A stretch of 64,000 nt of DNA from Fibrobacter succinogenes (GTDB lineage: Bacteria > Fibrobacterota > Fibrobacteria > Fibrobacterales > Fibrobacteraceae): the NCBI GenBank assembly GCA_902799745.1, contig CADCBQ010000004.1:1-64000 (forward strand), written 5' to 3'. Of the stretch, positions 1-10,733 are shown one piece after another (position 1 is the first letter of the stretch; each line of letters starts with the position of its first letter). The translations under genes and the position numbers were made by a program. The notes under the pieces were generated by a model that worked only from the letters and a program-made list of their open reading frames with translations, searched no databases and was not told where the DNA came from.

Positions 1-590
1 AAAATCAAGAAATGCTTGAAAGTCGAAGGATCGACGAAGTTTTCCATGACCTTCTGAAGGTCGGACTGAATGACTGCAATATCCTTGGTATTCCGTTCCG
101 TTTGCACGGCAATTTGGGCAATGCCGTCATAACCCAATAAATTCCGATTTTCGGCAATGATGTAGTCCTTCATCTGCTTGAAAAGGCGGATGATAGCCTT
201 GCTTTGTAAAATGGCCAAATCACCCCTAAGAACAGTCATAAGCATATAAATACCTTGTTCAGTGAAGGCGTAAGGGAGCTTTCTTACGCCTCCCCAACTT
301 GAAGTCGGAATTTCCGACTTCAAGTTTTCCTGTTCTAAGGTCGTTTTTTTCGACCTTAGAATTGACTGGTACTCTTCTCGTGTCAATTGAAACCGAAAAT
401 CCTCGTCAAATCGCTCAATATTACACTTTACTTGTTCATTGAATCTTTTGGTACTATACCCATAAATTTCCGCCAAGTCGGCATCGAGCATAACCTTGAG
501 CCCACGAATAGTATATATCCGCGACTTGAGCATATTTTCGTCTATCAGGGAAAATTCGGGTTTGGCAATCGCCGTTACTTCTTTCTTCAT
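1..590 (-). CDS. ORF6N-domain protein (3-prime end beyond window)
   Basis: The reading frame starts at an ATG at 590 with an AGGAG-like site upstream and runs off the left edge, so the C-terminus is missing; about 196 residues are visible. Residues 20-65 contain the ORF6N pattern: IYTIRGLKVMLDADLAEIYG, then KRFNEQVKCNIERF and FRFQLTREEY. A second conserved block, KLPYAFTEQGIYML, follows near residue 105. ORF6N proteins are known from phages and mobile regions and are thought to bind DNA, often as regulators or antirepressor-like proteins; the exact role here is unknown. Between the two blocks the protein has a low-similarity segment encoded by three DNA hairpins (see 267-361). Its location at the edge of a decaying accessory island fits a mobile-element origin. 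Confidence 0.85.
   Translation of the reverse strand, partial: MKKEVTAIAKPEFSLIDENMLKSRIYTIRGLKVMLDADLAEIYGYSTKRFNEQVKCNIERFDEDFRFQLTREEYQSILRSKKTTLEQENLKSEIPTSSWGGVRKLPYAFTEQGIYMLMTVLRGDLAILQSKAIIRLFKQMKDYIIAENRNLLGYDGIAQIAVQTERNTKDIAVIQSDLQKVMENFVDPSTFKHFLI
267..361. repeat. Three consecutive hairpins inside the ORF6N coding sequence
   Basis: Three inverted repeats lie back to back in the gene: 267-290 (8-bp arms, GGCGTAAG/CTTACGCC), 296-326 (15-bp perfect arms around one central base), and 333-361 (11-bp arms around seven T). They encode the variable stretch between the two conserved ORF6N blocks. Related palindromes occur at 1866-1923. Confidence 0.85.
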
Positions 591-694
591 TTTAACTCCT
601 TCCCGTCTACACGCGAAAAAGACGGGACTACACACTTGTTCACTACAAATATAAATTCAACAATGACGATTGTCAAGAGGAATAACAATTAAAG

Positions 695-1015
695 GTGAAA
701 TTTGTACCTCAAGTTTTCTCTTGTAACAGAATCGTGATTGATAAGCTGGGTCACTTGACAGAGAGTTCGAAAGTATCTAACTTCTCTAAAGAAGAATTTG
801 AGGTATACCAGAAAATGTATCACGAAAAATGGGACCATAATCTTATGGGAGAGGCCTTTTTGAAGGACTACGCGGACTTAGTCAACGCGAAGGTCGCCGA
901 AGGCGTCCTTGACAAAACTCGTGAAATTGCTCGTGATATGCTTGCCGAAGGTGATTCGGTGGAAAAGGTTGCTCGAATAACACATCTCTCCGAAGATATC
1001 GTTCGCAAACTATAA
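695..1015 (+). pseudogene. C-terminal remnant of a PD-(D/E)XK / Rpn-type nuclease-transposase protein
   Basis: The open frame encodes about 106 residues, but only roughly residue 25 onward looks like protein. The end (DKTREIARDMLAEGDSVEKV then ARITHLSEDIVRKL) resembles the C-terminal helix-turn-helix-like tail common in PD-(D/E)XK nuclease family transposases of the Rpn type, where a run of KxxEIA is followed by a short HTH-like motif. No catalytic D-ExK core precedes it; the upstream DNA belongs to another element (the tail repeat at 709-741, opposite strand). I therefore read it as a 5-prime-truncated remnant. It could alternatively be a short expressed protein starting at 695, but there is no convincing ribosome-binding site. 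Confidence 0.55.
709..741 (-). pseudogene. Short tail remnant of the 1917-2651 gene family (copy 1)
   Basis: Read on the minus strand this stretch encodes ITILLQEKT followed by TGA, matching the last residues (ITIQLQEKT, TGA) of the intact gene at 1917-2651. Only about ten codons remain. It is one of three copies of this gene end in the first 2 kb. Confidence 0.6.
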
Positions 1016-1022
1016 ACCGACC

Positions 1023-1104
1023 TCAAATTTTCTCTTGTAGCTGAATCGTTATCGGGAACGGGATTTCTTTTAAGAAGTTTTCCGTTTGTTTCAGGATGCA
1101 TTGC
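1023..1104 (-). pseudogene. C-terminal remnant of the 1917-2651 gene family (copy 2)
   Basis: Minus-strand translation gives about 27 codons, including QTENFLKEIPFPITIQLQEK and a stop, nearly identical to the C-terminus of the protein at 1917-2651 (QTENFVKEIPFPITIQLQEK). The rest of the gene is gone. The neighbouring gene 1091-1714 runs into this remnant in another frame and takes its stop codon from it. Confidence 0.75.
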
Positions 1105-1714
1105 AAAATCTAGATTCGTTCTTTTTAGGTACATAAAAATCCAGATCGTTATGAATCTTTGTGCTAATATAAAATCTTTCTGGATCCATGGTGACTGCGT
1201 CTTGCAAGGAATAGAGTCCGCGATTAAAATGCCAATGCATCAAAAAACAGATGTAACTGTTTTTAAATTCGGGACGATTAAAAACCCCTATATTCCAATT
1301 CACCGGTATACTAAAATCCATATCGCATACATCCTCTAGGTCATAACCATTTGCATAGGTTAGTGGTGCGACGGAGTCATACAGAGTTTGACAATCTGCA
1401 TCGGCAGCCAGTCTTTCATAAGTTGGATAGAATATGCCAACTTCTACCTGAATTAATTTGTCGTAGTACTTTTTCCCGTCGTCAATCAACTTTTGAATAT
1501 CATTGTGAATTGATTTCCCGACACGATCCGCATCGTGCATCAAAGCCCAAAGTTTATCGTTCAAGCGGATGATTTTAGCGACATTTTCTGAAGACCAGAC
1601 AAATTCTTCGTTTTGCTTTTGCTGGCGCTCGTACATGCAATGCATTGATTCGGTCTTTCGCTTTGAAAAGATCTCTTCATCTTTACAGCTTTGTTCAATT
1701 TCATCTAAACGCAT
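1091..1714 (-). CDS. Unknown protein, paralogue of 7825-8496
   Basis: This gene of 207 codons has no family I recognise. It is soluble-looking, with no signal peptide or membrane segment and a charged N-terminal helical half. It is a clear diverged paralogue of the protein at 7825-8496: compare NEEFVWSSENVAKIIRLNDK here with NKNFRWTYANMKKLIALDQR there, and SLYSLQDAVTMDPERF-like endings with SLYTFHDIVRMKPEQF. Its last few codons come from the remnant of another gene (1023-1104), so the native C-terminus may have been lost or replaced. It lies downstream of the unknown gene 1917-2651 in the same direction. It could belong to a small immunity or defence accessory family, but nothing in the sequence proves that. 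Confidence 0.65.
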   Translation of the reverse strand: MRLDEIEQSCKDEEIFSKRKTESMHCMYERQQKQNEEFVWSSENVAKIIRLNDKLWALMHDADRVGKSIHNDIQKLIDDGKKYYDKLIQVEVGIFYPTYERLAADADCQTLYDSVAPLTYANGYDLEDVCDMDFSIPVNWNIGVFNRPEFKNSYICFLMHWHFNRGLYSLQDAVTMDPERFYISTKIHNDLDFYVPKKNESRFCNAS

Positions 1715-1865
1715 AGATTCTCCATTTTTTCACTATTCAAAAATAAACATTCGTTGCGACAAATATTGTCGTGAAGGAAAATGTTTTGACAAGTTCCCTG
1801 GCAAATAGCTGAAGGGAATCCGCCTATAACCAAACTATAAACCGAACTACAAATCTACCTTTAAG

Positions 1866-1923
1866 TTCAAGGACGAAAATTTCGACCTTGAAAACTTGAG
1901 GTCAATTTTTTTGACCTCAAGTT
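1866..1923. repeat. Pair of adjacent palindromes
   Basis: Two inverted repeats abut: 1866-1892 (13-bp arms with one mismatch pair) and 1893-1923 (13-bp arms AACTTGAGGTCAA/TTGACCTCAAGTT around five T). The second overlaps the stop codon of the 1917-2651 gene. They resemble in sequence and pairing the palindromes inside the ORF6N gene (296-361). They could also act as a terminator. Confidence 0.75.
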
Positions 1924-2651
1924 TTCTCTTGTAACTGAATCGTGATGGGAAACGGGATTTCTTTCACGAAATTTTCCGTTTGTTTCAGAATGCCTTGCAA
2001 TGCCGGAATTCGGTTTAGGTAATTTTGGGTATTAAAATCCATTTCGACGGAGTATTCGTTGTTAATTGAGACTTCTAGCGAAAAGGTGTTTTCGTCTTCG
2101 TTCAAATTCCAGGAATACTTCGTAGATTCCATAATGTGCGAAACCGTCGCGCGGATTGTATCCCGCGCGATTTCATCCAGCTTCTGCTCTTTTTCGATCT
2201 CGGTTATGATTCTTGAAGACTGTTCGCAGTAACTCGGAAATTCCTCGATGAAATTTGCGAGATTATCGAGAGTGGCGCCGAGGTCACATTGACTGCGCCG
2301 AAAAGGGACGTTGAACGCCTCTATATCCGCATACTCAAAATGAATGCTTAAAAATTCAGCCTCGCAATTCACGATAAGGCTGATAGAATCCTGCACCTCA
2401 AAAGATTTAGAAATGCAGATGGCCTGCGTCTTATCGCATTTGCGATAGCCCCTGGATTCTTGCTTATAAGAAATCTCAAAGCCGACATTCGGCCATGCCT
2501 TTTGCAAGCAAATAAACGCCGCGTAAGCCCCATCCTTATTCGGGAAGACTCCATCTGTATTGCAGGCATAAATCTTTTTGACAAGTGGTTGCCAGAAATT
2601 GAGGCAAGCTTCAGATTTATACTTGGTGAGATTTTCTGAATGATTATGCAT
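1917..2651 (-). CDS. Unknown protein; intact member of a family with two decayed copies nearby
   Basis: The gene encodes 244 residues with no recognised domain, signal peptide or membrane segment. It begins MHNHSENLTKYKSEACLNFW and ends in ITIQLQEKT. Acidic and aromatic residues are spread evenly, consistent with a globular cytoplasmic protein. Its C-terminal coding sequence is repeated as fragments at 1023-1104 and 709-741, so the locus once held more copies. It is transcribed towards the paralogue gene 1091-1714 and may be co-expressed with it. The start at 2651 is the only good ATG near the N-terminus; another ORF in a different frame overlaps and is a shadow. Confidence 0.65.
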   Translation of the reverse strand: MHNHSENLTKYKSEACLNFWQPLVKKIYACNTDGVFPNKDGAYAAFICLQKAWPNVGFEISYKQESRGYRKCDKTQAICISKSFEVQDSISLIVNCEAEFLSIHFEYADIEAFNVPFRRSQCDLGATLDNLANFIEEFPSYCEQSSRIITEIEKEQKLDEIARDTIRATVSHIMESTKYSWNLNEDENTFSLEVSINNEYSVEMDFNTQNYLNRIPALQGILKQTENFVKEIPFPITIQLQEKT

Positions 2652-2820
2652 GGAGTAGATTGTTGATGGCTATGGGTCTCTTCAAAATACATTCTTTACG
2701 CGACAGATATAGTCATAAAAAATATAAATTGCTATTGAAGATGTTTTACTTCAATGTTTATTTCCGCAGTTTCATAGGCAAAATTGTTTACACAAGTGCG
2801 GTACTTAATTGTCCATACAA

Positions 2821-3051
2821 TCATCTACAACATCTTTTATCGTCGAATAATTCGCAACATAACGAATTGCCGTCATTACGAACTTGACGCCCAACAATAA
2901 GAAGGAAGCTATATACTTCGTCAGAATCATTAACATCTTCGTCAAGGATTCCAATACGGTTGGCCAGAATATCTTCAATATCCTTTTCTATCAAATCGAT
3001 TGAACTAAAATCATTTTTGTTAAAGGAATCAATTCCTTTTTGTTTGAGGAC
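2821..3051 (-). pseudogene. Fragment resembling a PD-(D/E)XK nuclease N-terminus
   Basis: This otherwise gene-free stretch (2652-3074) has a minus-strand open frame of 76 codons without a start codon. It includes IDLIEKDIEDILANRIGILD and then LLIVGRQVRNDGNSLCCELF, which resembles the start of NucS/DUF91-like or related PD-(D/E)XK nuclease domains (E-dLE-fL ... iigrQv-td). A strong ribosome-binding site (GGAGGT at about 3067-3073) and an ATG lie just upstream, but in a different frame that stops after three codons, so a frameshift seems to have killed the gene. A shorter frame on the same strand ending near 2810 is also open and could be the continuation after a second shift. Family assignment is weak. 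Confidence 0.35.
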
Positions 3052-3074
3052 TATTCATACATTTTACACCTCCA

Positions 3075-3860
3075 TTAGGTATTCACTTTTTTCAAAGACC
3101 CTTTTACCCTTTCCAAAATTGAATCGTCAATTTTCACTCCATCATATTGCATATATTCTTGATTGTTCCCAACATGATTCTTGTCTATGTGAACATATCC
3201 GTTTGGATCAATTTTAAGAATTTTAGCGTCGCTATCAAACAAAAGATGCAAATCTGATCTTAACAAGATGCCATTATTTGTTACTTCACGCCCTCCCTTT
3301 TTTACAGCAACAATATGCGCCGCTTGAAGAACTTCGGGAATAGTGATTTTTGTTATAGCGCATTTTCCATCCAAATCTAAAAGGTTACTACGGAAAGCCG
3401 ATTGGTCACGGGCAACCTGCTCTGTAGTTCTTTTTTTTCTTTTTTCTTGATAGTTTTCTTTAAATGCAAGGGTTCTGATATTTTTTCTTGAATCGTAAAC
3501 TCTATTATTTTCATAGGGTTTCCATAAAATATATGACACATGACCATCATCTCTCATATAATATTGTTCTACGCCATATTCAATTCCCGTCCTTAATTTG
3601 GTCTCTTTCACAAATGCTTCCATTCTGGAATTTAGGTTTTTATTGTATGCGACTTCAATATATTTTGATTTATGCTTCCACTTAACGTGATATGGAGGAA
3701 CTTCATTCATATTTCCTTTATTCATCCAAAAAACTAGAAGATCAGCTTCCCCTGATTCTCCAATTTTTGAACGCGTAATTTTTAACGGAATAATAATTAA
3801 TTCTTCTGCTTTCACGTATTTTATTTGCAGTCCTTCATAATTTATAAACTCAATAGACAT
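3075..3860 (-). CDS. HNH endonuclease, restriction-like
   Basis: The gene encodes 261 residues. The C-terminal part (about residues 160-220) carries an HNH_2-like nuclease core: CAITKITIPEVLQAAHIVAV, then a conserved NNGILLRSDLHLLFD segment, with AAH as the first His, the Asn of NNG, and DLHLLFD as the last motif. Such domains occur in restriction enzymes and other DNA nucleases. The N-terminal 150 residues are unrelated to the other HNH protein here and could be a target-recognition or sensor domain. It follows 3884-4309 in the same direction with a gap of 23 bp, so the two are probably co-transcribed. An arginine/lysine-rich linker (KRKKRTTEQ) precedes the nuclease domain. Role in phage defence is an inference from the neighbourhood. 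Confidence 0.8.
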   Translation of the reverse strand: MSIEFINYEGLQIKYVKAEELIIIPLKITRSKIGESGEADLLVFWMNKGNMNEVPPYHVKWKHKSKYIEVAYNKNLNSRMEAFVKETKLRTGIEYGVEQYYMRDDGHVSYILWKPYENNRVYDSRKNIRTLAFKENYQEKRKKRTTEQVARDQSAFRSNLLDLDGKCAITKITIPEVLQAAHIVAVKKGGREVTNNGILLRSDLHLLFDSDAKILKIDPNGYVHIDKNHVGNNQEYMQYDGVKIDDSILERVKGSLKKVNT

Positions 3861-3883
3861 TGCCTTTATCTCCTTTTTTTCAG

Positions 3884-4309
3884 TTATACAGTTCCCTCAT
3901 TTTCCATTAATTTTTTGTTGACTGCATCAACATGATTATAAACTGGTCCTGACACAACAACTTTATTTTTACCATCGCTTTCCTTTTTTACAATGGTTTC
4001 TGCAACATTTCCGAAACCTATTGTCAACCAATATTTTTCATTTTCAAGAGCATATTCCCATGTTGAATTCACAAATTTTCCCGTATCGATACGAACTTCA
4101 CTTACAACCAATTTCCATTCATGGGTATTAAAATTCTGCATTTTCTGAATTATCTCAGCAGGGACTACCCGTTCCTTACATCGTTCTACAAAATGTTTTG
4201 CCGACAAATTTAGAGAACAAACTGAATCCATTTTATAGTGAATTCGCTCAAATAATGAGCGTGGGCCACTATCTATATGAAATCGAGCCTTTTGGAAACG
4301 TGTTGTCAT
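3884..4309 (-). CDS. Unknown small protein, possibly DUF4258-like
   Basis: The gene encodes 141 residues with no signal peptide or membrane segment. A central stretch, SAKHFVERCKERVVPAEII, followed by strands around WEYALENEKYWLTIGFG, recalls the DUF4258/RelE-like small-protein layout (H-x-ER-x-x-R), but the match is weak. An upstream GGGGA supports the start at 4309; an internal ATG at 4231 would remove a poorly structured N-terminus and is a fair alternative. It sits between the glycosylase-like gene and the first HNH gene, all in one direction, so it may be a small partner of one of them. Confidence 0.6.
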   Translation of the reverse strand: MTTRFQKARFHIDSGPRSLFERIHYKMDSVCSLNLSAKHFVERCKERVVPAEIIQKMQNFNTHEWKLVVSEVRIDTGKFVNSTWEYALENEKYWLTIGFGNVAETIVKKESDGKNKVVVSGPVYNHVDAVNKKLMENEGTV

Positions 4310-4324
4310 ATAAAATTCCCCAGT

Positions 4325-4396
4325 CTACCTTTTCTCCACGGCTTCGATTTCTTCCGCATTGATGATGCCATAGCGTTGATAGACGAAGTAGGCTTT
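4325..4396 (-). other. In-frame 23-codon tail after the stop of the glycosylase-like gene
   Basis: Directly after the TAG stop of the gene at 4397-4960, the same frame continues with AYFVYQRYGIINAEEIEAVE and ends in TAG. The segment has good coding character and might be the leftover 3-prime end of another gene, or a lost extension. I do not recognise its source. Confidence 0.3.
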
Positions 4397-4960
4397 CTAA
4401 TCTTTTTGGGGAAACCTGTCTAGATAACCTTTAATTGCTTTATAGTATCCAATTTTTGTTTCTTTATCATGATGGCTATCAATTGGAAATGGAACTACAT
4501 AAAACATCGTTGAGCAATTTTCAATTATTCTGCCAATTTTCCCATATTTATTTTTGTCAAATTTCACGCCCATGTATGCTAGGAAAGATTTTTTTACTTT
4601 ACTATGTAGAAAAACTACGACTTTAGGAGCGTTCTTCTTTATTTTTTCTTTTAGATACTTGCAATCATCGTCACTGGGTTTAATATTTTTGCTATTGCTA
4701 TCTACAACATCGCGAACAAGGTCTGTGATCCCATAGGACCATTCCTTATAGTTCTTTTCATTCTTACCAAAGATTTCAACATCGGCACATAACTTGTCGA
4801 CTTCTTCCGTAATTAAACCAGCACCGAATAATTGATTCCAAAAGGCTTGATTCACGGAAAAATAATGCTTGTTTTTGTTGGAACCATTAGCAGGGTTGAG
4901 ACCAACGAAAAGGATATCCAATCCTTCTCTAACGAACGGAACCAAATTCGATCCTTTCAT
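4397..4960 (-). CDS. Uracil-DNA glycosylase superfamily protein (MUG/TDG-like)
   Basis: I place the start at ATG 4960, which has a strong site (GGAAGG) six bases upstream, giving 187 residues; an earlier ATG at 5017 overlaps the stop of a tiny ORF and is the alternative. Residues 10-40 hold the superfamily's first motif, ILFVGLNPANGSNKNKHYF then FWNQLFGAGL, in which GLNP supplies the Asn that activates water in MUG-type enzymes. Near the end, FYVVPFPIDSHH occupies the place of the second motif (usually PSPS or HPS). The family removes uracil or other abnormal bases from DNA. The changed second motif and the position between HNH genes make a role against modified phage DNA conceivable, but that is speculation. 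Confidence 0.75.
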   Translation of the reverse strand: MKGSNLVPFVREGLDILFVGLNPANGSNKNKHYFSVNQAFWNQLFGAGLITEEVDKLCADVEIFGKNEKNYKEWSYGITDLVRDVVDSNSKNIKPSDDDCKYLKEKIKKNAPKVVVFLHSKVKKSFLAYMGVKFDKNKYGKIGRIIENCSTMFYVVPFPIDSHHDKETKIGYYKAIKGYLDRFPQKD

Positions 4961-5013
4961 ATTTTCCTTCCTTTGTGATTTGTTAGACCTTTTAAAAGAA
5001 ATATACCCTATTT

Positions 5014-5115
5014 TCATCCTTTTTTAAGTTTTCTTATTTCAAGGAAGATTTCTGAGTTCCGTTGAATGAAGTCTTCCAGATAGGTGATTGTGGTTTGGTT
5101 TGTGAAGGTATTCAT
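5014..5115 (-). CDS. Possible 33-residue leader ORF
   Basis: An ATG at 5115 follows AGAGAGG at good spacing and opens a frame beginning MNTFTNQTTITYLEDFIQRN and ending in a lysine-rich tail. Its stop overlaps the ATG at 5017 (ATGA), an arrangement suited to translational coupling with the glycosylase-like gene. The first 30 bases resemble those before and at the start of the HNH gene at 6161 (GAGGTA..CTTATGAA.ACCT), so the two leaders may share an origin. It may be a leader peptide, a remnant, or chance. Confidence 0.35.
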   Translation of the reverse strand: MNTFTNQTTITYLEDFIQRNSEIFLEIRKLKKG

Positions 5116-5174
5116 AAAGTAACCTCTCTTTTAGCTTATGGTTTGCGTGGTGAACTTTTAGTAGAAAAATGTGG

Positions 5175-6161
5175 TTATTGGTTAAACACCATGGTTCGGT
5201 GTATTTGAAGGAAAAACTCTATTTTATTTTTATCCCTTTCAGACAATGACTTTGGGGGATTGAGCCTCATTAAAGAATCAATACCTAATTTTTTACATTT
5301 TTCTTCTATTTCAGGAGATGCAAATAAAATCTTCCATTCTTCATCAAAGGTAATTAAACCCTTGTCAAAAAGAGCATCTAAATTAGCGGATAGCAGTAAG
5401 CCGTTATGCGGGTCAATGCGTTCTTCATCTGAACAGTTTTTCCAAGGTTTAGCATGACTTGCTATTAAAGCCTCTTGAATATCGCATCCAGTCACTGCGC
5501 ATGACCCATTCCATAAATTCTTCATTTGCTCGCGATATTCTCCTTGACCTATACGAGCAAGCGTTTGTTGCATTCGCTCAGTTATCCAGCTGACATCATT
5601 CGTCTCAAATTCTATTGAATGTCTTTGGATAATTCTCTTTATTTTTTCATCGTTGAAGAACATCGCAAGTGATGAATACTCATCTTTTCCATCAATATAT
5701 ACGGAACAGTAAATAATCCCGGCTTTATCCTTTTGGAATACAAATTCATTTACCGGTGGAATTATATTCAACTTCCATATTTTCTCATGTGTTTCGTTCT
5801 TCAACCATCCACTATATTCAGGAAAATCACTGAAAAAATCAGGTTCTTCATCGTAGGCTAAGGAAATAGCGTAAACAAACTCCTTACGATTCCAATATTC
5901 ATACCACAGATCAATAGAAACTTTAGCCTCCCCTGCGGAATTTTTTTCTGTAGATTCGCCTAAAGTGACGTAATAAGAGTTTCCCCTTATCCCCACATAG
6001 GCATCCAAAGGATTTTTTGCAAGCATCTTTTCAGGATCATTTCGTTCTAGAAAAGAATTCAATTGAACCTTTGCTTCTGATAGGTTCATGTTAAAGCGCC
6101 TTTTCTTCGTAAGAGAACCGGTCTTTTTGGGGGTTGACGGGATTTTTTTGTAGGTGTTCAT
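5175..6161 (-). CDS. HNH endonuclease, restriction-like
   Basis: The gene encodes 328 residues. Near residues 225-280 is an HNH_2-type domain: CAVTGCDIQEALIASHAKPW, then DPHNGLLLSANLDALFDKG, with the SH, the Asn of HNG and the final DALFD motif intact, so it should be catalytically competent. The N-terminal two thirds are likely a recognition or regulatory region; I recognise no family there. The start at 6161 has GCGAGG seven bases upstream; a second ATG at 6089 is possible, which would drop a basic N-terminus (TPKKTGSLTKKRR). This layout, unknown N-terminus plus C-terminal HNH_2, is common in stand-alone restriction endonucleases. No methyltransferase is visible beside it. Confidence 0.8.
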   Translation of the reverse strand: MNTYKKIPSTPKKTGSLTKKRRFNMNLSEAKVQLNSFLERNDPEKMLAKNPLDAYVGIRGNSYYVTLGESTEKNSAGEAKVSIDLWYEYWNRKEFVYAISLAYDEEPDFFSDFPEYSGWLKNETHEKIWKLNIIPPVNEFVFQKDKAGIIYCSVYIDGKDEYSSLAMFFNDEKIKRIIQRHSIEFETNDVSWITERMQQTLARIGQGEYREQMKNLWNGSCAVTGCDIQEALIASHAKPWKNCSDEERIDPHNGLLLSANLDALFDKGLITFDEEWKILFASPEIEEKCKKLGIDSLMRLNPPKSLSERDKNKIEFFLQIHRTMVFNQ

Positions 6162-6293
6162 AAGGATACCTCGCTTTCAGGTTGATAAAAATGAAACCAT
6201 GTCGAAAAATATTTCGAAATTTCGGTGATAGCAACACTTTCTAACCATACGCTTAAAACGTATGCTTAAAGGATGTTCGCTTAACAGGTTTGG

Positions 6294-6668
6294 CTAGTTG
6301 GCCGAGTCAGCCGAGAAATCCGGCTCATTGTCAACGAGTTCTTTGAACTTTTCAGAAATTTCTTCGTCAGAGCAATCTACAAGATCCTCAACTCGCTTAT
6401 AAGCAAGCTTGGTCCACTGATTGATTTTTTCTGTTTTTACGATAGCGAAGGAGTCTCCCATATTGATGAAACTCCATCCGAGTTCTACAAGAACGTCGTC
6501 CAGTTCCTTCAGAAATTCAGAAGAAAGCCTTTGGCGATTTGCAATGAACGCAAGCGTAGTATAACTGAATCGGTAACGAGAAACTTCTCGTTCTTTTTCA
6601 AGTTCATAGAGCAAAGCGTTGCAGATGAGGATTTGCGCTGTTTTTAGAGTTGAATTCAACTGTGTCAT
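6294..6668 (-). CDS. Unknown small protein
   Basis: The gene encodes 124 residues, mostly helical in composition, starting MTQLNSTLKTAQILICNALL and ending in an acidic tail (DEEISEKFKELVDNEPDFS). No signal peptide, membrane segment or known motif is visible. It is transcribed towards the HNH gene at 5175-6161, with a 132-bp gap that could hold a second promoter. The helical repeat of charged residues would suit a protein partner rather than an enzyme. Function unknown. Confidence 0.6.
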   Translation of the reverse strand: MTQLNSTLKTAQILICNALLYELEKEREVSRYRFSYTTLAFIANRQRLSSEFLKELDDVLVELGWSFINMGDSFAIVKTEKINQWTKLAYKRVEDLVDCSDEEISEKFKELVDNEPDFSADSAN

Positions 6669-7072
6669 CTTGATTCTCTTTTTTTTTCAGTAGATAAAGA
6701 TTTTTGCCGATGGTTTACTACAGGTAACCTTCCTGATACTAACAGTAATATACATAATTAGATGCAGAAAGTCAATAGCTAAAATGTTTTTTTTCACGTT
6801 TTTTTCTTTGAGGGAACTGATAAACAGATTATGGAAATGTCAGAAAAAGAGATTCTATTCCTAGCAGCCAGAAGCCAACCAACAGTCCCAAATTTAACAT
6901 TACTTGAACCAGGAAAAACTTTATGCATTCTGCATTAGGCTTCCAGCCACTTAACAATCTGTAGCCTTAGCAGAATTGCGTTAGGGACAGTTACCCGAAG
7001 GGACGAGACTTGCGTTAGCAAGGCTCGGTGAGCACGCCGTTAGCGGCGTGCGAGTATGGCCCGACCCGGCTA
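6669..7072. other. Gene-free stretch with a structured GC-rich element
   Basis: Between the genes at 6668 and 7149 I see no credible coding frame. Bases 6669-6960 are AT-rich and featureless apart from homopolymers; they probably hold the promoter of 6294-6668. Bases 6970-7070 switch to GC-rich sequence with two clean hairpins: 7005-7026 (GAG..TTGC-GTTA-GCAA..CTC) and 7032-7051 (GCACGCCG-TTAG-CGGCGTGC), directly followed by the interspersed repeat at 7073. The block may be part of a longer dispersed repeat or a structured RNA. Confidence 0.5.
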
Positions 7073-7110
7073 GATCCTTCGACTCCGTAGCACTCCGCTC
7101 AGGATGACAC
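7073..7110 (+). repeat. Interspersed repeat, GATCCTTCGAC...CTCAGGATGAC type, copy 1
   Basis: The unit begins GATCCTTCGACT and ends CTCAGGATGACAC; its ends form a short inverted repeat (ATCCT/AGGAT). Other copies lie at 46381-46420 and, reversed, inside rnhB at 61519-61561. It is noncoding here. Confidence 0.8.
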
Positions 7111-7148
7111 ATCGATTTGGCCGGGGAACGCCCAAAGGAATTTACTCT

Positions 7149-7808
7149 TTATGGTTCCAATTTATTGTAATTCGGAATGGGTAAATCGTAGGGCAGAATG
7201 CGGCTGTCGTCATCGCCTTGGACTTCGTTGTTGAAAGCTCCGATGACGCTCATCCAGTTGTTTGTACACTTGTCGCTAAATATGCTCCTGCATTTTGTTT
7301 TCAGGAACTTCATGAGCATCTTTTTCTCGTTGTCGTCCAGGAACCAGACGGATTTGTTGTACGAGGAACCCAGTTCGTATTTGGGTTCCAGAAAGGAGAT
7401 GCGCGCGCACTTGGTCGCGAGTCCTCGTTTCCAATGGTTGTACAGCGTAAAATACGGTTTTTTGCCGGGGCCGATGTCGATGACGGCGCGAAGGTCTATA
7501 TTCAGGCTCTTGCTCCACGCTCCGTTGCAGGACATCATGTTGAATTCCGAAAGCTGCAATTTGCCATCGGGCGAATAGACGTTGATTTGCCTATCGGATT
7601 CATAGTCCAAATCGTTGTCGACGGGCAGGTACATGATGGAAAAGCTATAGACCGGGCAATAGAAATCTCCGCCCTTGACGTAATCCCGCAGAACTTTTTT
7701 GGCGGTGCGTAGCGACGTGAAAATTCCCAGATCGTGATCAACGGTATCATAGCCCAGCCCATTCGGCAGTATCGTTGTCGCCAGCTGATAAATGTATCGT
7801 CTTCTCAT
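7149..7808 (-). CDS. Unknown protein
   Basis: The gene encodes 219 residues with no recognised family. It is rich in aromatic residues and has no signal peptide or membrane helix. The N-terminus RRRYIYQLATTILPNGLGYD and a later stretch DIGPGKKPYFTLYNHWKRGL suggest a compact beta-rich domain. The start at 7808 has GAGGT at suitable spacing. It follows the paralogous gene 7825-8496 by 16 bp and is probably co-transcribed with it. At the related locus near 1-2.6 kb the paralogue has a different neighbour, so the pairing is not fixed. Confidence 0.65.
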   Translation of the reverse strand: MRRRYIYQLATTILPNGLGYDTVDHDLGIFTSLRTAKKVLRDYVKGGDFYCPVYSFSIMYLPVDNDLDYESDRQINVYSPDGKLQLSEFNMMSCNGAWSKSLNIDLRAVIDIGPGKKPYFTLYNHWKRGLATKCARISFLEPKYELGSSYNKSVWFLDDNEKKMLMKFLKTKCRSIFSDKCTNNWMSVIGAFNNEVQGDDDSRILPYDLPIPNYNKLEP

Positions 7809-7824
7809 AGTACCTCACTTTTGT

Positions 7825-8496
7825 TTAAAAACTCAATGTATATCTCACTTCGAATTGTTCCGGTTTCATGCGGACAATGTCGTGGAAGGTGTAGAGGCTT
7901 GATTCGCTGTCGTAGAGGAGCGAGTCGAGTTCCCAGGAGACGCCGTCTTTGACGAACTTGTCGACGAGCAGCATTTGTTTCCAGGCGGGAACGAGGTAGA
8001 CCTTGTGGCGTTCGGGGTTGTGTTCGTTCGTGCTTGAGCAGATGTTAATGGAACCCCAGTTTGCGTACCAGAATAGCAGATCGCTGATGTACTCGTGTTC
8101 GCCGGGAATATCCCAGTCGTTCGCAGGGCAGATTTCCGATTCGAGTTCGTATTCCCTGTACCACTTGTGATTTTGCGCAGTAAGTGCGGCGATATCCCTT
8201 TTGGTCGCCTCGAAGGTGCGAGCGATGCTCCGGTGCAGTTCCCTGAAACGCTGGTCGAGCGCGATGAGCTTTTTCATGTTCGCGTAGGTCCAACGGAAAT
8301 TCTTGTTCAGCTTTTTGTAGCGGTCATTCAAAAATTCGGTGTGGATTCTGGTTTCGAAAAGTTCCTGTTCAAACCTGCTTTGGGGCATTTCTTTTTTCCA
8401 CTTCTCGACACAGCCGCGTTTGCGGCCGTTATCGAAGTCGCGGTAGAAATTTTGGAGAATATCCCACCGCGGTGTGCGTGAAAGAATCCTTGTCAT
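7825..8496 (-). CDS. Unknown protein, paralogue of 1091-1714
   Basis: The gene encodes 223 residues and is the fuller of two diverged paralogues in the island (the other is at 1091-1714). Shared features are a helical stretch NFRWTYANMKKLIALDQRFR, a following long helix, and a C-terminal SLYTFHDIVRMKPEQF. An N-terminal Arg/Lys-rich region could contact nucleic acid or a protein partner. There is no signal peptide or membrane segment and I recognise no domain. A GGGAGC site precedes the ATG at 8496. It likely heads a two-gene operon with 7149-7808. Confidence 0.65.
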   Translation of the reverse strand: MTRILSRTPRWDILQNFYRDFDNGRKRGCVEKWKKEMPQSRFEQELFETRIHTEFLNDRYKKLNKNFRWTYANMKKLIALDQRFRELHRSIARTFEATKRDIAALTAQNHKWYREYELESEICPANDWDIPGEHEYISDLLFWYANWGSINICSSTNEHNPERHKVYLVPAWKQMLLVDKFVKDGVSWELDSLLYDSESSLYTFHDIVRMKPEQFEVRYTLSF

Positions 8497-8651: not shown

Positions 8652-10733
8652 CTATTTCTGCTTCAACGGCGTCATACTCTTGGCACAGATTGCCATGGTC
8701 GAGAGATTGTGCAACAAGGCCGAGGTCGAGGGGGCCAAGAAGCCGAAGAAGCCTGCCGCCAGTAACGACGTGTTGAAGGCCACGATAAAGCGGTAATTCG
8801 CCTGGATACGTTCCATAAGTTGAGTACTCAACGTACGGAGTTCGGCGAGATCGCGCAGATCTTCGCTGCGGAGGGTCACGTCGGCGGTTTCGCGGGCAAT
8901 GTCGCTGGCATCGCTCATGGCGACCGACACGTTCGCGGCAGCCAATGCGGGAGCATCGTTGATTCCGTCGCCCACCATAATCACGCGGCGGCCTTCGGCC
9001 TTCATCTTTTCCACATAGCGGTGTTTGTCTTCGGGCAACACCTGCGCAAAGAAGGTATCAATGCCCAAAAGTTGAGCTGTACGTTCAGCGGCTTTCTGGC
9101 TATCGCCGGTAATCATCGCCACATGCCTGATTCCGCGTTCACGCAGCATGCGGATCGCTTCTGCCGCTTCGTCTCGCGGAGGATCGCTAATGCAAAGCAC
9201 TCCCGCAAGGTTCCCGCCAATGGCAAGGTAAATCACGGAGGCTGCTCCGGCGAGTTCGTCGATCTTTTTCTGTTCCGCTTCGCCCACTGCAATTTTTTCG
9301 TCTTCGACGACGAAATGTTTGCTGCCGATAACGGCGCGTTCACCGTCGAGAGTCGTCGCGATTCCATGCGCCACGATGTATTTGACATCGGCGTGTTCTT
9401 CTTCGTGGTCGATTCCCCGTTCGGCGGCACCGCGCACAATGGCGCGCGCCATGCTATGCGGGAAATGCTCCTCGATGCAGGCCGCAATGCGGAGGATTTC
9501 TTCTTCGCTGCGATTACCGAACGGAATAACACGTTCAAGTTTCGGTTCCGCCTTGGTGAGAGTTCCTGTCTTGTCGAAAACAATGGTATCGGCAAGCGCA
9601 AATTCTTCCAGGTACTTGCCGCCCTTCACGGTCATGTTGCGGTCAGCGGCTTCGCGCAGCGCAGAAATCACCGAAATCGGGGTCGAAAGCTTGATGGCGC
9701 AAGAATAATCCACCATCAGAATCGAGACGGCCTTGGTAATGTTGCGCGTAAACAGGAGCGTGAGCCCGAAACCGAGGAAACTGAACGGTACAATACCATC
9801 GGCAAGGCGTTCAGCGCGGCTCTGGATAGAGGCCTTCAAGTCTTCAGAGCGATCGATAAGTTCAATGATTTTCTGAATCTTGGTATTGCCGCTCACGGCC
9901 CGCACAGATACTACGATGGAGCCTTCGTCCACGACGGTGCCTGCAAAAACGGACTTTCCGACCGTCTTGTGCACCGCCTGCGATTCGCCCGTCATGGTCG
10001 CTTCGTTCACAAAGGCATCGCCTTCGGCAACGGTTCCGTCCACCGGAATCATGCTGCCGGAACGCACGCGCACGAGGTCGCCCACCTGAACATCCTGCAT
10101 GCGCACCTGAACATCGACACCGTCCTTGACAACCCACACGCGGTCTACCTTCACGGCAAGGCTTGCGGTAAGGGCGGTGCGGGTACGCGCCTTGGTGTAA
10201 CCTTCCAAAAGGCTACTTACGTTCAGCAAGAACATAATGGTTCCTGCCGATTCGTAATTGCGCTGCAGGATGCTCGCTCCGATAGCGGCTCCATCTAACA
10301 CCTCGACAGAAAGCTTTCCTTCACCAAGGCAATTCAAGCCCTTAGCCACAAACTTGAGGCCCCTGTAAATCAGGTGCACCGTGCGGATAGGAGCCGGAAT
10401 AAACAACTTGGCCAAGTAACGCCTCGCAATCATGAACGCGAGCTTATTCTTGAAATCCGTATCAAGAGCCTGCAGCTGATATTCGGTATCGGGTTCAATT
10501 TCCGGAAGATTTGCAATGTTAAGATTTCGAACGAAATCAATCACCTGTTCACGATAGCCATCTTCGTATTCCAGCAGAATACCGCCGTTTTCCGAATGGA
10601 CTACCGCTTTCTGGACATAAGGTTCACTCACGCATGCCATGTGGATGCGCGGTTCATGCATTGTCTCAAATGCGTAGGCCCCCGCCCGAAAGCGGATTCG
10701 CCCCGGCTGATCGTAAACAATCTTGAATTTCAT
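8652..10733 (-). CDS. Heavy-metal translocating P-type (P1B) ATPase
   Basis: The 693-residue protein moves a metal ion across the inner membrane using ATP. Visible motifs in order: an N-terminal GRIRFR domain (about 1-75) of the kind replacing the usual metal-binding domain in one ATPase subgroup; the actuator TGES (about 250); the phosphorylation site DKTGTLT (about 390); HFPHSMARA in the nucleotide domain; and the hinge GDGINDAPAL. The key transmembrane metal motif is not CPC but SCAIKLSTP, so copper specificity should not be assumed; metal unknown. There are few predicted membrane helices before the actuator. It is preceded, 3 bp away, by the small protein 10737-10961. Direct repeats upstream of that gene may be the metal-responsive control site. 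Confidence 0.9.
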   Translation of the reverse strand: MKFKIVYDQPGRIRFRAGAYAFETMHEPRIHMACVSEPYVQKAVVHSENGGILLEYEDGYREQVIDFVRNLNIANLPEIEPDTEYQLQALDTDFKNKLAFMIARRYLAKLFIPAPIRTVHLIYRGLKFVAKGLNCLGEGKLSVEVLDGAAIGASILQRNYESAGTIMFLLNVSSLLEGYTKARTRTALTASLAVKVDRVWVVKDGVDVQVRMQDVQVGDLVRVRSGSMIPVDGTVAEGDAFVNEATMTGESQAVHKTVGKSVFAGTVVDEGSIVVSVRAVSGNTKIQKIIELIDRSEDLKASIQSRAERLADGIVPFSFLGFGLTLLFTRNITKAVSILMVDYSCAIKLSTPISVISALREAADRNMTVKGGKYLEEFALADTIVFDKTGTLTKAEPKLERVIPFGNRSEEEILRIAACIEEHFPHSMARAIVRGAAERGIDHEEEHADVKYIVAHGIATTLDGERAVIGSKHFVVEDEKIAVGEAEQKKIDELAGAASVIYLAIGGNLAGVLCISDPPRDEAAEAIRMLRERGIRHVAMITGDSQKAAERTAQLLGIDTFFAQVLPEDKHRYVEKMKAEGRRVIMVGDGINDAPALAAANVSVAMSDASDIARETADVTLRSEDLRDLAELRTLSTQLMERIQANYRFIVAFNTSLLAAGFFGFLAPSTSALLHNLSTMAICAKSMTPLKQK

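Follow-up and report, generated by a model that had tools for sequence, protein, structure and literature searches.

HNH nucleases and a TDG/MUG-like glycosylase in a variable slot of Fibrobacter genomes: a candidate site of modification-dependent restriction

We analysed an accessory island at the start of a stretch of 64,000 nucleotides (the window) from a Fibrobacter assembly, which probably is a metagenome bin. Window position 1 is the contig end, so that the gene encoding an ORF6N protein is cut. Between the contig end and the gene of a P-type ATPase every intact gene is encoded on the minus strand, the order of transcription being p223, p219, p124, HNH2, the glycosylase-like gene, the small gene, HNH1, p244, p207 and the cut ORF6N gene. 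Open reading frames and Pfam matches confirm what an earlier note had read from the letters alone, i.e. genes in one direction encoding two HNH_2 nucleases, a UDG-superfamily protein and a small protein. The features are as follows.

8652..10733, minus strand: P-type ATPase, conserved slot flank; 97% identical in G057 and at the same place in G027, G029, G095 and G035
7825..8496, minus strand: p223, anchor protein on the ATPase side; adjoins p219 in 16/16 compared loci; dN/dS about 0.1
7149..7808, minus strand: p219, anchor protein and partner of p223; present in 25/111 genomes of the family
6294..6668, minus strand: p124, small cargo protein; phrog_26231 (E 2e-18); 90% identical copy in the G083 slot
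5175..6161, minus strand: HNH2, slot cargo; N-terminal part of about 190 aa and HNH_2 nuclease domain (E 4.5e-13)
5017..5115, minus strand: putative ORF remnant of 33 codons upstream of the glycosylase gene, read from the sequence
4397..5017, minus strand: TDG/MUG-like glycosylase, UDG superfamily (PF03167, E 6e-9)
4328..4387, minus strand: C-terminal tail of a type IIG gene, 20 codons, the rest of the gene being lost; 80% identity to the IIG end in L024
3884..4309, minus strand: small protein, 141 aa; homologues in Deinococcus, Mycolicibacterium and another Fibrobacterota genome
3075..3860, minus strand: HNH1; N-terminal part of about 145 aa and HNH_2 nuclease domain (PF13391, E 1.7e-9)
1917..2651, minus strand: p244, conserved slot flank opposite p223/p219; equally placed in G057, G060, G056, G083, G095 and G035
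1913..2000, minus strand: 88-nt direct repeat, copy 1, at the end of p244; 89% identity to copy 2
1091..1714, minus strand: p207, between both 88-nt repeats; not at this place in G057
1019..1106, minus strand: 88-nt direct repeat, copy 2
1..635, minus strand: ORF6N protein, conserved far flank, cut by the contig end; PADLOC PDC-S05 (E 3e-59); G057 copy 76% identical

The two copies of one family reported by the earlier note, p207 and p223, are distant paralogues with 30% identity over 81 aa. The 88-nt repeats around p207 (1019-2000) derive from the end of p244 and represent a gene-insertion footprint. For the 33-codon ORF remnant no clear homologue was found in the compared loci other than the window; its assignment as a further piece of the type IIG tail was dropped, as only the 20-codon stretch 4328-4387 is supported.

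Comparison of 16 loci, either read around p219 or known beforehand, shows that a conserved Fibrobacter locus with a variable slot (P-type ATPase-p223-p219 / cargo / p244-ORF6N-WYL) explains the island better than one fixed system does. One border of the frame is p223-p219, frequently followed outwards by the ATPase; the other comprises p244, ORF6N, a protein of 136 aa and a WYL regulator. Individual elements are missing, or the locus is cut, in some of the 16 loci. Identity of p219 across the loci is 87-99% in most and 76-77% in G035b and G060. The cargo between these flanks is exchanged. Four other genomes (G092, G056, G029, G027) carry the known type IV enzyme McrBC in the orthologous position: McrC of G092 was identified by PF10117 (E 4e-98), its counterparts in G056, G029 and G027 are 83-89% identical to it, and the aligned McrB proteins diverge more (53-69% identity). 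HNH2-type nucleases occupy the slot in G102, G110 and G060, directly following p223/p219 in the former two, and HNH2 of the window (5175-6161) goes with the slot and not with the block of UDG, small and HNH1 genes. PLD nucleases are found in G035 and G095, the latter having an AAA_5/VWA pair in addition, p124 and a NOV_C protein in G083, HNH375 together with the UDG-small-HNH1 block in G057 and G089, and cargo of unrecognised type in G109 and G035b; in G059 nothing was recognised. The exchange has left gene ends behind, namely a p244 tail of 29-34 aa after McrC in G092 and G027, the 88-nt repeat of the p244 end and 95-nt repeats around the UDG-small-HNH1 block. The anchor genes p223 and p219 (7149-8496) are always paired, and both are kept even at the empty site of G059.

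HNH_2 (PF13391) exceeds the Pfam cut-off in both HNH1 and HNH2. Their HNH domains are homologous (hhalign, 94%), whereas the comparison of the N-terminal parts gives 0.6%, in agreement with the unrelated N-termini noticed earlier. The catalytic residues H182, N196 and H205 of HNH1 are invariant in four sequences. Searches of Pfam, NCBIfam and PADLOC gave no SRA, SBD, EVE or other match above cut-off restricted to the N-terminal part of HNH1 or HNH2, and a profile search of solved structures with HNH1 gave none. HNH1 was not found in viral contigs, and its matches in phages and plasmids are partial and centred on the HNH domain only. The dN/dS values of cargo genes are mostly below 0.3 where computable (HNH1 0.08-0.27), the exceptions being two HNH2 pairs with 0.31 and 0.34; an HNH2 relative at L062 carries a stop. 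In combining a variable N-terminal part with a C-terminal HNH_2 domain, both proteins resemble HNH_2 enzymes with an N-terminal sensor (PADLOC PDLC04132; the phosphorothioate-dependent NF045808), but their N-terminal parts are mutually unrelated and have no database match, and NF045808 scores far below its cut-off. They share with McrBC and other type IV enzymes, which occupy the slot in sister genomes, the lack of a cognate methyltransferase, and differ from McrBC in being single proteins with an HNH_2 domain and no GTPase. The absence of a methyltransferase, remarked upon in the earlier note, is expected because the cargo resembles modification-dependent (type IV-like) restriction with McrBC among the slot-mates.

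The glycosylase has a UDG fold according to PF03167 (above cut-off), and its profile matches human TDG (E 1.4e-7). Its structural model (pLDDT 76) is most similar to human TDG, followed by MUG and family 4 UDG (Foldseek TDG E 1e-11, TM 0.67-0.69). Translation probably starts at 4960 instead of 5017, as the homologues begin at M20. Six family sequences share a GLNPAKGS-like motif A, HYFSVNQAFWNQL, G[IV]TDL and an FPHGN-like motif B, individual members showing variation. Motif A, which in TDG/MUG reads G-[IMF]-N-P-[GS], is GLNPA in the window and PLNPA in G057, Asn-Pro being retained and the final residue being Ala. The altered second motif pointed out by the earlier note is real: the window has FPIDS as motif B, three relatives have FPHGN, and one each FPHRN and FPNGN. 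This divergence from FPHGN may impair the wedge loop and weaken the window enzyme.

The family shares with TDG/MUG (UDG family 2) the fold, the Asn-Pro of motif A and the overall profile match, but differs in having Asp where TDG/MUG have Asn or Lys at the GxT position, FPHGN in place of PSSARC/NPSGLS, the extra conserved HYFSVNQAFWNQL block and defence neighbourhoods. The wedge loop NPSGLS/PSSARC is absent from the window glycosylase and its relatives, and the NCBIfam cut-offs for mug are not reached (38 bits versus 402.6 for TIGR00584; 29 versus 144). In profile alignments the Asp of GITDL/GVTDL, present in 6/6 members, aligns with the Asn of GFTNM in TDG, and the Asn of FPHGN with the Arg of SSSARC in TDG. 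We take these TDG residues to be at the base-contact and the wedge position, respectively. In Brig1 the acidic residue E147, where Asn is usual, was assigned to base reading (PMC11078745), and Brig3 inserts an Asn into the DNA helix (PMC13160076). The alignments taken together with these two reports suggest a modified cytosine-type substrate.

Relatives of the glycosylase outside Fibrobacter occur in Bacteroidota, Clostridia and others; none was found among phages and plasmids, nor was the glycosylase found in viral contigs. The family is rare and patchy, being present in 3/111 genomes of the Fibrobacter family and with one new member among 395 Bacteroidota genomes. A weak match from the phylum of the Clostridia genome (G959) was rejected as a member, being a canonical MUG, and used as contrast. 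By raw count, four of the five loci outside Fibrobacter have defence genes near the family member: a CBASS cyclase and phospholipase in L066 (E 1e-131 and 1e-158), Schlafen AlbA_2 in L030, Shedu in L031 and AbiU in L032, a locus with a broken glycosylase gene. At the fifth locus, L029, no defence neighbour was recognised. Location in defence islands, as described for Brig, thus applies to these four loci and to the Fibrobacter slot, and together with the McrBC, PLD or HNH nucleases in slots of sister genomes it bears out the defence island suspected in the earlier note. In L066 the glycosylase directly adjoins the two-gene CBASS (5520-8174). An ordinary MUG/TDG mismatch-repair enzyme with the HNH genes as unrelated passengers would agree with TDG and MUG as nearest solved structures and with the catalytic Asn kept in motif A; we consider it very improbable, given GITDL and FPHGN differing from canonical MUG (PSSSGL in L094), the rare and patchy distribution and the defence neighbours.

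The UDG, small and HNH1 genes have identical order and orientation in the window, G057, G089 and one rumen contig (L026), and 95-nt direct repeats flank them in G057 (91%) and L026 (89%), consistent with insertion in one piece. L026 is filed under Alphaproteobacteria with proteins 99% identical to those of Fibrobacter (G057), and the contig is probably misbinned. Low dN/dS values, 0.27 for the glycosylase and 0.13-0.18 for the small protein besides those of HNH1, show that all three genes are maintained by purifying selection. Conserved order, repeats and selection would fit a single base-excision restriction system, in which the glycosylase creates abasic sites in modified DNA, HNH1 cuts at these sites or is triggered by them and the small protein serves as regulator or RNase-like toxin. 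Such a machine is possible, but we judge it unlikely and do not favour it. All loci with the block represent one orthologous site and thus count as one event. HNH1 occurs without the glycosylase in two genomes, with an intact small gene in G038 and after a decayed one in G025. Outside the genus the glycosylase was never found beside HNH1 or the small protein, and the small protein stands without either of the other two. Moreover, dS between the window and G057 is 0.13 for the small gene, 0.52 for UDG and 0.86 for HNH1, which indicates separate recombination histories and not evolution as one block. The earlier proposal that HNH, small protein and glycosylase form one unit therefore holds for a physical block at a single Fibrobacter site, and the genes do co-occur in other genomes as it had asked, but they are separable: the block is real but modular.

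G038 (L024) carries an intact 1286-aa type IIG restriction-methyltransferase (PDLC03612, Eco57I type) followed by the small gene and HNH1, whereas of this enzyme the window retains only a tail corresponding to its last 20 residues, which precedes the small gene at the same position as in L024. Window positions 3082-4386 align to the G038 DNA as one unbroken block including the last 20 IIG codons, from which we conclude that small and HNH1 originally followed a type IIG gene, whose place the glycosylase now occupies; G057 has a IIG trace upstream of the small gene too, shorter than in the window. The intact order in G038 and these traces would suit small and HNH1 being accessories of the type IIG enzyme, as back-up or guard, stranded after its loss, with the glycosylase there by chance. 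This appears quite improbable: purifying selection on HNH1 and small persists after loss of the IIG gene, G109 carries the IIG gene without either, and G025 keeps HNH1 despite its decayed small gene. The small protein itself gave no family above cut-off; hhalign relates it to DUF4258 with 64% probability over the HxxxRxxER motif only, hmmscan did not find this domain, and a structure prediction from two sequences reached pLDDT 42. It was found neither among the 395 Bacteroidota genomes nor in viral contigs. In Deinococcus deserti a homologue (L040, 7854-8393) follows a cassette of lexA, Y-family polymerase, DUF6504 and dnaE, a context hinting at a link of the small-protein family to DNA damage.

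Our data support, with a probability of roughly 0.6, a model according to which the island is a variable slot of interchangeable nucleases without partner methyltransferase (McrBC, PLD, HNH), here filled with HNH2 and a transferable glycosylase-small-HNH1 block whose glycosylase and HNH1-small parts are separable. HNH1 and HNH2 would each recognise foreign, probably base-modified DNA via their own N-terminal part, the C-terminal HNH domain doing the cutting. The glycosylase, predicted to be a Brig-like defence enzyme acting alone beside these autonomous nucleases, would flip a modified pyrimidine, most probably a cytosine derivative, out of phage DNA and excise it, leaving abasic sites that would block phage replication or be cut by host AP endonucleases. 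Host DNA would be spared because the modification is absent from it. The glycosylase and the HNH1-small pair would be units travelling together here and no obligate complex. Attack on modified phage bases, as imagined in the earlier note, is consistent, by analogy, with the McrBC slot-mates and the published Brig glycosylases.

Base-excision defence is already known from Brig1-3 and Dag (PMC11078745, PMC13160076, PMC13216743), and type IV restriction likewise. Brig1, Brig2 and Brig3 (PMC11078745, PMC13160076) are also UDG-superfamily-related DNA glycosylases of defence islands without partner methyltransferase, and Brig1 has an acidic base-reading residue where the window family has the Asp of GITDL. 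Compared with Brig by description only, the window family is nearest to TDG/MUG, whereas the closest structural match of Brig1 is family 4 UDG and Brig3 was compared with AAG; the partner of Brig3 is the ASCH protein BapA, whereas the window glycosylase is accompanied by HNH. Apparently new are the Fibrobacter slot and, on this comparison by description, the TDG/MUG-like defence-associated family with its own motifs. The slot, common to the genus and two related genera, exchanges McrBC with uncharacterised nucleases and offers a direct route to new modification-dependent restriction enzymes, and a TDG-like family with defence neighbours would extend base-excision immunity beyond Brig. A more far-reaching proposal treats the TDG/MUG-derived family (GITDL/FPHGN) as distinct from Brig and as an anti-phage enzyme, rare though widespread, that excises modified cytosine and that in Fibrobacter has been coupled to an HNH nuclease and the small protein as a base-excision restriction system replacing type IIG; we regard it as speculative and rather unlikely.

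Two further observations concern the surroundings of these genes. On the far side of the slot some genomes encode a 774-aa AAA protein with an IetA-like ATPase domain (L022, 13705-16029). L024 (1140-14133) represents a second Fibrobacter restriction locus with the type IIG enzyme, small, HNH1, a KAP NTPase (PDC-S49) and a NERD protein, and at the same place L025 and L061 carry PDC-M62-like genes, L025 also SIR2.
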